A stretch of 64,000 nt of DNA from Natronomonas marina (GTDB taxonomy: Archaea; Halobacteriota; Halobacteria; Halobacteriales; Haloarculaceae): NCBI RefSeq assembly GCF_024298905.1, contig NZ_CP101154.1, positions 2,294,001-2,358,000 on the forward strand. The letters are read 5' to 3'. The translations under genes and the position numbers were made by a program. This document shows, one piece after another, positions 21,839 through 32,652 of the stretch; positions within the stretch are counted from its first letter, which is position 1, and each line of letters starts with the position of its first letter. Under the pieces are notes generated by a model. The model was not told where the DNA came from and ran no database searches. It was given only the letters and a program-made list of their open reading frames with translations.

Positions 21839-22495
21839 ATGGCCGACGACCGCCGGACGGTCCGGGAGACCTACGACGCCATCGCCGAGCACTTCGCACG
21901 GACTCGGGCGTACCCGTGGCCGGAGACCGAGACGTTCTGTGCGGACCGGCAGGTCGGCACCGCCCTCGACGTCGGCTGTGGCAACGGCCGGAACGCGGAG
22001 GTGCTCGTCGAGCACGCCGAACGCGTCGTCGGGGTGGACGCGAGCCGGAACCTCCTGGCGCTGGCCCGCGAGCGGGTTCCCGAAGGGAGTTTCCTCCAGG
22101 GCGACGCCTCGCGGCTCCCGCTGGTTGACGACGCCGTCGACCTGGCGGTCTACGTTGCGACGCTGCATCACCTCCCCGAGCGGGGACTCCGACGGCGGAG
22201 CCTCGACGAACTGGCCCGGGTGCTTTCGCCGGGCGGCGAGGCGCTCGTCAGTGCCTGGAGCACGACCCACGACCGCTTCGACGCCCCGGCCGACGCCGAG
22301 GTCGGCTTCGACACGCACGTCGACTGGACGCTCCCGGACGGCGAGACAGTCCCCCGCTTCTATCACATCTACGCGCCCCCGGAGTTCGACGCCGACCTCG
22401 CCGCCAGCGACCTGACGGTCGTTCGGTCGTGGCGCTCCAGCGGCAACTGCTATGCGGTCGTTACCCCCAGCGACGGGGAACGGAAAGGCCCTTAG
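21839..22495 (+). CDS. Class I SAM-dependent methyltransferase (Trm9-like)
   Basis: 218 residues. Motif I is ALDVGCGNGRNAEV, then VVGVDASRNLL, GDASRLPLVDDAVDLAVYVATLHHL and the ARVLSPGGEALVSAW strand. The opening VRETYDAIAEHFARTRAYPWPE resembles Trm9/ALKBH8-type tRNA wobble-uridine methyltransferases, so a tRNA role is possible but not proved. An in-frame ATG at 21797 overlaps the previous stop; the extra 14 residues are low-complexity, so ATG 21839 is preferred. It may be co-transcribed with the pilus genes. Confidence 0.8.
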   Translation: MADDRRTVRETYDAIAEHFARTRAYPWPETETFCADRQVGTALDVGCGNGRNAEVLVEHAERVVGVDASRNLLALARERVPEGSFLQGDASRLPLVDDAVDLAVYVATLHHLPERGLRRRSLDELARVLSPGGEALVSAWSTTHDRFDAPADAEVGFDTHVDWTLPDGETVPRFYHIYAPPEFDADLAASDLTVVRSWRSSGNCYAVVTPSDGERKGP

Positions 22496-22519: not shown

Positions 22520-22642
22520 GCGCCGATGGTGAGCGGTTCCGAAGGAACCGCGAGTCACGGCGCGAGGAACGAAGTGAGCGCCGATGGTGAGTGATTCCGA
22601 AGGAATCACGAACCCCGGGGCGCGAGGAACGGTGTGACGAGC
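22520..22642. repeat. Two tandem hairpin modules carrying the 5' end of tRNA-Gly
   Basis: The first 11 bases of the tRNA (GCGCCGATGGT) are repeated upstream at 22520-22530 and 22578-22588. Each copy is followed by a perfect hairpin with an 8-bp stem and GAA loop: GCGGTTCC/GGAACCGC in the first, GTGATTCC/GGAATCAC in the second. The stems differ by compensatory changes. A GGCGCGAGGAACG(A/G)(A/T)GTGA-type segment follows each hairpin. Confidence 0.75.
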
Positions 22643-22713
22643 GCGCCGATGGTCTAGTGGTAGGACCTGAGCCTTCCAAGCTCATGGCCCGGGTTCAAAT
22701 CCCGGTCGGCGCA
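22643..22713 (+). tRNA. tRNA-Gly (TCC anticodon)
   Basis: 71-nt cloverleaf without intron. The acceptor stem GCGCCGA pairs with TCGGCGC, discriminator A. The anticodon stem TGAGC/GCTCA encloses CTTCCAA (anticodon TCC). The T arm is CCGGG TTCAAAT CCCGG. CCA is not encoded. Repeats and hairpins flank it on both sides. Confidence 0.93.
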
Positions 22714-23285
22714 TTGCGAGACCGAACAGAGTGAGGTCTCGAAGACGTGAACGGGGAGCGAAGCGACCCGTGAACGCACTCCCTGCGGTCGTTTGCCGCT
22801 TTGATTTCCCGTCGTCCCCACGCGAGTTCCGGTCGGCGAGGCGGTCTCGGGGTCGACCGGTTCCTCCAGCAAGGTATTATCAGGAATAGAAATCGCTCGA
22901 ACGATATTTATCGGTACGCGTCGTCGATCAATCCGGGGGATTCCGTCGAGAAGGTGGAGATGCACCCGACACGTCGCGGCGTTCGAGTCACGGCGATTCG
23001 GAGCCCGAGTGGACCACCCGAGCCGGGATCGCGTTTTATAAAACGGACGTGTGAACTTTTGGTGGATTCACGGATGGTTTTATTCGCCAACAATATTAGG
23101 CTCCGCATATAGTAACGAATTATCAGGCATGTCCTCCCTCATCCTCCGACAGATGTGGCGACATGCGCCAGAGGTCTAAGCGAGCGTAAAAAACAGGTGG
23201 TATCAACGATAATGTCATCAAACCGATATATAGTACGGCTGTGGAAGATGCAACGGACCCACGCTTTCCGACGGGGAGGATTCTC
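22714..23285. other. Intergenic region with tRNA-flanking hairpins and pilus-operon promoter
   Basis: About 570 bp, no supported gene. Just after the tRNA are two hairpins: CGAGACC/GGTCTCG (22717-22741, loop GAACAGAGTGA) and ACGGG/CCCGT (22751-22771, loop GAGCGAAGCGA). Further on the DNA becomes AT-rich, with the 14-bp palindrome CGTTTTATAAAACG at 23032-23045 and a TATA box (GATATATAG, about 23224-23232). GGGGAGG just before ATG 23286 is the ribosome site. ATTATCAGG occurs twice (about 22876 and 23119). Confidence 0.55.
23032..23045. promoter_or_regulatory. 14-bp palindrome with TATA core
   Basis: CGTTTTATAAAACG is perfectly symmetrical, about 250 bp upstream of the second pilus ATPase. It could be a second promoter (reading either way) or a regulator site. 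Nothing downstream within 30 bp looks like a gene start. Confidence 0.35.
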
Positions 23286-32158: not shown

Positions 32159-32231
32159 GGGCATGTGGCCTAGTGGACAGGGCGAGAGGTTCCTAACCTC
32201 TAGACCGCGGGTTCGAATCCCGCCATGCCCG
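32159..32231 (+). tRNA. tRNA-Arg (CCT anticodon)
   Basis: 73-nt cloverleaf. The acceptor stem GGGCATG pairs with CATGCCC, discriminator G. The anticodon stem AGAGG/CCTCT encloses TTCCTAA (anticodon CCT, reading AGG). The T arm is GCGGG TTCGAAT CCCGC. Copies of its last 13 bases recur downstream. Confidence 0.93.
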
Positions 32232-32263
32232 CTCGCCTCACTTCGTTCGGCTCGCGCGCATGG

Positions 32264-32307
32264 CGACCCTCGCGAACCCTGCGGGTTCGCTCGGTCCCGC
32301 CATGCCC
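32264..32307. repeat. 44-bp direct repeat, copy 1 (ends in tRNA-Arg 3' end)
   Basis: Identical to 32435-32478. It contains a perfect hairpin GCGAACCC-TGC-GGGTTCGC and ends TCCCGCCATGCCC, the last 13 bases of the tRNA-Arg body. Confidence 0.8.
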
Positions 32308-32434
32308 GTGCAACGAGGAGCGAAGCGACGAGTGAAGCGGAACGGGATTCGAACCCTGCAAGACGCAGCGCCGAGTGGAGCGAGGCGACCGTCTTGCTCC
32401 GGCTCGAATCCCGAGAGACGCCCACGGCGTCTCT

Positions 32435-32478
32435 CGACCCTCGCGAACCCTGCGGGTTCGCTCGGTCCCGCCATGCCC
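32435..32478. repeat. 44-bp direct repeat, copy 2 (ends in tRNA-Arg 3' end)
   Basis: Exact second copy, 171 bp after the first begins. It is followed at once by a hairpin with a perfect 10-bp stem (TTCGAGGCGC/GCGCCTCGAA, 32479-32509) and an 11-nt loop GAACGGAGTGA. Confidence 0.8.
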
Positions 32479-32652
32479 TTCGAGGCGCGAACGGAGTGAG
32501 CGCCTCGAAAGGACGAACGGCGAGCGAAGCGAGTCGTGAGTCTGCCTCGGCGAAGTGAACAGTGGGCACAGCGAGCCACCAGTCCGGCTCGACGAACCGA
32601 ACGACACCGGCCGAGCGGCGCCCTTTTGCTCTCGCGAACCGAGCCGGCGACC

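Follow-up and report, generated by a model that had tools for sequence, protein, structure and literature searches.

Tandem palindromic tRNA-end cassettes upstream of a haloarchaeal tRNA-Gly gene and their possible origin by DNA strand switching

The rtT repeats at the tyrT locus of Escherichia coli are tandem units of about 178 bp, direct only and found at one locus, which are cotranscribed and each carry a copy of the tRNA 3′ end. REP/RAYT systems pair a TnpA-REP gene with a conserved palindrome that is scattered over many intergenic regions. Integrating elements leave direct partial tRNA copies that lie kilobases apart (PMC9897764, PMC3119063). At the level of DNA copying, inverted triplications begin at short interrupted inverted repeats (PMC4689423), template switching makes the arms of inverted repeats identical (PMC8604942), and high transcription increases the perfecting of quasi-palindromes by template switching (PMC3820800). 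Here, we describe palindromic cassettes built from tRNA ends, of which no earlier description was found in the literature searched, subscription journals and rtT papers lying outside its scope.

The window analysed is a stretch of 64,000 nt from Natronomonas marina (NZ_CP101154.1, positions 2,294,001 to 2,358,000), and all coordinates below refer to it unless another sequence is named. tRNA-Gly(TCC) lies at 22643-22713 (+), and its 11-nt start, GCGCCGATGGT, occurs three times, at 22520, 22578 and 22643, as a first-pass annotation had noticed. The two upstream copies open unit 1 (22520-22577, +) and unit 2 (22578-22642, +), in which the order is E (tRNA bases 1-11), GA, an apex hairpin, GA, E′ (E inverted) and a linker that leads to the next E or to the tRNA. 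In unit 1, E (22520-22530) is followed by the apex hairpin at 22533-22551 (GCGGTTCC-GAA-GGAACCGC, between GA/GA), E′ CGGCGC at 22558-22563 and the linker at 22564-22577; the counterparts in unit 2 are E at 22578-22588, the apex hairpin at 22591-22609 (GTGATTCC-GAA-GGAATCAC, also between GA/GA), E′ GGCGC at 22619-22623 and the linker at 22624-22642, after which the third E (22643-22653) begins the tRNA. The units share 83% identity across 46 nt and matched a covariance model of the upstream unit, R2, with E-values of 6.3e-13 and 2.9e-12. Both apex stems are perfect over 8 bp with a GAA loop and stand two paired changes apart, and CGGCGC (22558-22563) and GCGCCG (22578-22583) flank GAGGAACGAAGTGA, all as first read. 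The arrangement goes far beyond chance, and the segment 22500-22780 folds far lower than its dinucleotide shuffles (z = -5.5, 0/200). What the annotation had missed is that the inverted E′ closes E, so that the full hairpin is E-hairpin-E′. Between E′ of unit 1 (22558-22563) and E of unit 2 (22578-22583) stands the linker hairpin core GAACGAAGTGA (22567-22577, +), of the GA-NC-GNA-GN-GA type, and the linkers of units carry this core or a variant of it. A promoter-like box of the tRNA gene, CCCTTA (22489-22494, +), lies 31 nt ahead of the first E copy.

On the 3′ side of tRNA-Gly, two REP-like hairpins (CGAGACC-GAACAGAGTGA-GGTCTCG and ACGGG-GAGCGAAGCGA-CCCGT) occupy 22717-22771 (+). This two-hairpin module (CGAGGCCGAACGNAGTGAGGCCTCGG..CGTGAACGGGGAGCGAAGCGACCCGTGAACG) has similar copies scattered through the genome (L076, L090, L091, L097), and some dispersed copies apparently lie within reading frames. 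The segment that follows (22778-22840, +; CTCCCTGCGGTCGTTTGCCG ... GTTCCGGTCGGCGA) matches 11/14 of the tRNA 3′ end and is probably a mirror-image 3′ cassette that has decayed; an intact homologue is present at another locus (L003). No integrase was apparent among the ORFs around tRNA-Gly, which were judged by eye. A box C/D-like reading of the locus was dropped, the sR28 match being weak and under threshold, as was a derivation of the apex sequence from the T-arm, for which TCC and CCC loci proved uncorrelated when judged by eye.

The unit recurs at other haloarchaeal tRNA flanks, where the annotation had thought it worth seeking: R2 matched 206 of 391 Halobacteria genomes and 54 of 86 genera. 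In a sample of the phylum, the seven matching genomes out of 120 all belong to the window's order. Of the best 30 R2 loci, 29 directly precede tRNA-Gly (CCC or TCC), the remaining one being followed by tRNA-Thr. The tRNA-Gly locus was located in 59 of 60 relatives, many of which carry one to three units with the same plan and other stems. Across 120 tRNA-Gly loci, partly picked using R2, units were present at 29/54 TCC, 36/61 CCC and 0/4 GCC loci, and three apex types shared one common plan. A pattern scan of genome contigs, the matches of which were mostly chance bacterial ones, gave among the matches listed four haloarchaeal contigs, all with a unit before tRNA-Gly; the carriers are Natrinema thermotolerans, Halorussus aquaticus, Haloprofundus marisrubri and a Halobacteriales MAG. 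In Haloprofundus (L243), where the tRNA starts with GCGCCGATGGTCCAATGG, the unit before tRNA-Gly was assigned by reading. Gly-type 5′ units also stand ahead of a tRNA-Thr(CGT) gene (L113, 1430-1560), whose 5′ end has GCCGGTG in common with tRNA-Gly, which suggests, as far as the sequence of this locus goes, that units may have moved between tRNA genes. At the cassette-bearing tRNA sites examined with Rfam 15, only tRNA scored above the gathering score.

Both E and E′ follow the local tRNA. Where the tRNA starts with GCGGCG the unit reads GCGGCG...CGCCGC (L014), where it starts with GTGCCG the unit reads GTGCCG...CGGCAC (L158), and CCC loci with the tRNA start GCGCCGTT have GCGCCGTT in the unit as well; a few units are one base behind their tRNA (L125, L343). 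We then compared spacings to the promoter box. At TCC loci, the distance from box to tRNA is 32-34 nt in most unit-less loci, and the distance from box to the outermost E is 32-34 nt in several unit-bearing loci; at CCC loci, the modal spacing is 39-41 nt both from box to tRNA in unit-less loci and from box to first E in unit-bearing ones. This correspondence indicates that the outermost E stands at the former tRNA start, and hence that copy 1 in the window occupies the ancestral start of tRNA-Gly, a point the annotation had not raised. Many loci are off the modal spacing, in some cases because the oldest unit is too degraded for detection, and at 51 loci the search detected no box.

The same plan, in mirror image, is found 3′ of many tRNAs, which likewise goes beyond the first reading. 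In a census of 151 tRNAs from four genomes (the full sets of three and ten tRNAs of the other), 45 carried a copy of their own 3′ end (at least 13/14) within 300 nt downstream, against 0.50 for permuted identities and 2 and 2 in the cross controls. Own 5′-end copies were seen at 10 census tRNAs, six of them tRNA-Gly genes with units, while the remainder are partial copies of tRNA genes or, probably, a chance match. An inverted T-arm copy (at least 10/14) was present in 66 of 95 cassettes, compared with 2/95 after shuffling, and it fitted the own tRNA better than other tRNAs in 78 of the 95 and worse in 16. Direct copies lie 64-192 nt from the tRNA and are about 10 nt long on the 5′ side and 14 nt or more on the 3′ side. 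R2 also matches the same apex module in antisense downstream of tRNA-Ala and tRNA-Arg, with two such matches at tRNA-Arg(CCT) of the window. Outward from either tRNA end, the general plan is thus end, hairpin, inverted end, hairpin, end, over 60-190 bp. Because the acceptor stem forms an inverted repeat, either end of the gene reads the same when approached from outside, in keeping with a mirror-image process. At 26 non-halobacterial archaeal tRNAs, one 5′ copy and one 3′ copy were found, for which a tandem tRNA gene nearby and a tRNA fragment can account, and none of the 26 had a GA-GNA core.

The second cassette-bearing tRNA of the window, tRNA-Arg(CCT) (32159-32231, +), offers a fuller case than the tRNA-Gly locus, with an R′-type cassette between two mirrored 3′ units over 32258-32479. 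The first of these (32258-32308, -) consists of an inverted end, a CGAACCC-TGC-GGGTTCG hairpin and an exact copy of the tRNA 3′ end (14/14); the R′-type cassette (32343-32413, +) has an inverted T-arm, CGGGATTCGAACC, a stem plus hairpin and a direct T-arm copy, GGCTCGAATCCCG; and the second mirrored unit (32435-32479, -) carries a copy that matches the tRNA 3′ end at 13/14. Elsewhere in the same genome, a partial tRNA-Arg(TCT) copy that holds a GA-GNA hairpin precedes the intact gene by about 200 nt (L031, C1:100434-100493). In another genome, more than ten tRNA genes, some of them low-scoring, are packed into about 3 kb like the tRNA arrays of mobile elements (L179, G025 C1:2634400-2638500).

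The hairpins themselves are of a narrow type. Among tRNA-flank hairpins with a 2x2 internal loop, 112 had GA/GA, and no other type exceeded two apart from reverse-strand TC/TC. The inner stem was 2 bp in 110 of the 112, most of which have a C-GNA-G triloop, and a GNA triloop occurred in 167/231 hairpins with a strong outer stem versus 35/531 with a weak one. Linker and downstream hairpins prefer C-GNA-G triloops with tandem GA, a hallmark of hyperstable DNA mini-hairpins. C-GNA-G with two G-C pairs corresponds to the d(GCGAAGC) DNA mini-hairpin, which is extraordinarily stable (PMC4686876). The tRNA-sense strand was favoured 80:32, and upstream hairpins were 16:2 sense. In tRNA loci, GA hairpins are concentrated within 400 nt of the tRNAs, and they are also found in dispersed repeats; a whole-genome search showed many away from tRNAs, ruling out that they are exclusive to tRNA flanks. 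About eleven sites in the genome that holds the window (L074, L075, L079, L083, L087, L088, L089 and L093-L096) share a dispersed intergenic element, about 160 nt long, that has GA-GNA hairpins and an end resembling ctatttttcatcgaagtttttgccgg-hairpin-gtgcaaaaagttcg.

The first-pass annotation had taken the paired stem changes as selection for structure rather than chance. The stems do stay paired across genera: relatives retain the unit with paired changes and do not show the free variation that the annotation had named as a refutation. In 18 homologous units, 91.6% of cells were paired, double-change cells numbered 33 versus 9.9 in shuffled data, and the covariation score was 0.348 versus 0.151 shuffled and at most 0.105 with partners slid. 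Covariation in another alignment (A2) was set aside as circular, its members having been picked for pairing. However, paired changes alone are no proof of selection on RNA. RNA stems accept G-U and not A-C pairs, and in the tRNA stems of these loci G-U outnumbered A-C 79:8, whereas a strict count, with small numbers, gave 9:7 for the 3′ cassettes and, for GA hairpins, 3:7 and 3:3. On these numbers, neither the 3′ cassettes nor the GA hairpins show an RNA signature. The 5′ apex stems had 6 G-U, 2 A-C and 3 other mismatches in 264 pairs, a fixed-register count of few events. Moreover, orthologous loci that differ at 0-9 of 60 leader bases showed 19 double-changed stem pairs and 0 single-sided ones, in a set made up mostly of R2-found loci, R2 favouring paired stems. 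Two loci just one leader base apart (L103 and L121) differ at two stem pairs and one loop base. Stem change in paired blocks without single-sided intermediates points to templated copying, block replacement or cassette exchange.

Compared with the described systems, some 3′ loci resemble rtT in having tandem repeats beside a tRNA gene that each carry a tRNA 3′-end copy, such as tRNA-Ser(CGA) with three 3′-end copies 69 nt apart (L183). Most cassettes, in contrast, are single and palindromic; units measure 50-190 bp and are found at both tRNA ends (the 5′ units carrying the 5′ terminus), at many isoacceptors and in the majority of the haloarchaeal genera tested. REP elements and haloarchaeal PATEs (PMC3119063) are likewise short intergenic palindromes, as are those here, some of which are dispersed in the genome that holds the window, but REPs and PATEs have conserved arms or ends, while here the arms follow the local tRNA; relative to REP/RAYT, dispersed GA hairpins are present and the arms are not conserved. 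Partial tRNA genes that remain after integration (PMC9897764, PMC8371274) share the direct tRNA-end copy outside the gene, but they have kilobase spacing, an integrase nearby and neither inverted copy nor hairpins. In quasi-palindrome template-switch mutation (PMC3820800, PMC8604942), too, copying renders the arms of an inverted repeat identical, an effect that high transcription strengthens, although the process is known as point correction of existing quasi-palindromes and not as serial duplication of tRNA ends. The A-A′-A order of inverted triplications (ODIRA, tandem inversion duplication; PMC4689423), in which both junctions hold short interrupted palindromes, is found here as E-E′-E on the 5′ side and in the inverted T-arms on the 3′ side (66/95, own-tRNA match 78:16), and apex and linker hairpins stand at both turns; the known cases, however, span kilobases and amplify genes, whereas 10-25 nt of tRNA end are involved here, at many tRNA genes.

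Given this architecture and distribution, the tracking of the local tRNA, the block-wise paired change and the insertion point, we read the window segment as two palindromic tRNA-end cassettes in tandem, made by strand switching at the DNA level and representing, on the 5′ side, a pattern that is general to Halobacteria, and we put the probability of this reading at roughly 0.45. For the origin, we infer double strand switching at stable DNA hairpins followed by tandem duplication. The strand under copying at a tRNA gene, which is heavily transcribed and an inverted repeat, would fold where a small hairpin of very high stability forms (with a C-GNA-G triloop and tandem GA) and switch template, giving an inverted copy of the tRNA end; at a second hairpin it would switch back, so that the two switches would regain the orientation and leave the tRNA intact. 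Extra units would arise by ordinary tandem duplication, as may be the case for three nearly identical 63-nt units in tandem (L013) and the three 69-nt units of L183, and the arms would stay perfect via template switching or exchange with other units. The suggestion, made at first sight of the sequence, of a repeat that spreads by copying tRNA ends comes close to this. Lying between promoter and tRNA, the 5′ unit is presumably transcribed as leader RNA, and strand switching requires no role for that RNA. Against strand switching count the non-tRNA flanks of the Type-I apex (TGAGC...GCGA), which are common to several genera and to 5′ and mirrored 3′ units, so that the hairpin module resembles an inherited or spreading element and not a fresh accident at each locus; the 80:32 sense bias of GA hairpins, unexpected of a strand-neutral DNA process; the limitation of 5′ units to tRNA-Gly and one tRNA-Thr among the tRNAs checked; and the many loci with off-modal promoter spacing or with no box detected.

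Since strand switching alone explains neither the cross-genus apex modules nor the sense bias, readings by RNA function and by an inserted element stay alive. The units might form hairpins in the leader of the tRNA-Gly precursor, such as acceptor-like minihelices drawing RNase P or stabilising or timing processing, with selection on the RNA pairing the changes. Their place between promoter and tRNA, the nearly uniform sense orientation of upstream hairpins (16:2), the strong covariation, a plan kept over 54 genera and the 6:2 preference for G-U among the rare wobbles of 5′ apex stems are as such a function would have it; we nevertheless consider it somewhat doubtful, as the unit is dispensable, about half of the tRNA-Gly loci having no detected one, the G-U excess is absent from 3′ cassettes and GA hairpins, near-identical orthologues show no single-sided intermediates, and the Rfam matches were tRNA only. 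A non-autonomous, REP- or MITE-like palindromic element, moved in trans by a transposase or a Cas1-like integrase and inserting at tRNA ends, would leave the end copies as target-site duplications. Insertion with duplication would place the outermost E at the original tRNA start, as found, and apex modules common to 5′ and mirrored 3′ units, related GA hairpins scattered elsewhere in the genome and Gly-type units ahead of tRNA-Thr agree with it. Target duplication, however, does not produce an inverted E′ and R′ that match the local tRNA, the direct copies are unequal in length on the two sides, no fixed element ends were seen, and in place of a constant insert E′ and R′ vary with the tRNA and apex stems vary among near-identical loci, which makes such an element unlikely.

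Lower still we rank an idea drawn by analogy with integron attC and REP/TnpA, namely that haloarchaeal tRNA genes could be landing sites of a system that inserts single-stranded DNA hairpins by reading their structure. Its enzyme would recognise the GA-NC-GNA-GN-GA mini-hairpin and insert palindromic cassettes serially at acceptor-stem ends, which seems improbable to us. A scar of past integration, which the first-pass annotation had also considered, is very improbable. Tyrosine integrases of viruses and plasmids do act at tRNA ends and leave part of the tRNA behind as a copy, those of archaea favouring tRNA 3′ ends and pTN3-like ones the 5′ half (PMC8371274), and tRNA fragments are frequent as scars (PMC9897764). 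The copies seen here, however, are not distant partial tRNA copies free of an inverted partner: they lie 64-192 nt from the tRNA with hairpins and inverted copies, the latter 60-190 nt off, where scars are direct copies kilobases apart. Furthermore, about 30% of tRNAs are affected, tandem copies with a fixed period are possible, the 5′ copies are just about 10 nt long, and by eye the ORFs around tRNA-Gly do not have the look of an integrase.

Taken together, in the survey of four haloarchaeal genomes about 30% of the tRNA genes examined have palindromic duplications of the own 3′ end beside them, and the tRNA-Gly genes of most genera have such duplications of the 5′ end. These cassettes confound tRNA annotation, the calling of att sites and covariation-based searches for RNA elements, the last because perfect paired changes can arise without selection on RNA. 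If strand switching is their origin, the cassettes would document small inverted duplications at highly transcribed genes as these occur in nature, and would provide a test bed for tight DNA hairpins as a cause of such events.
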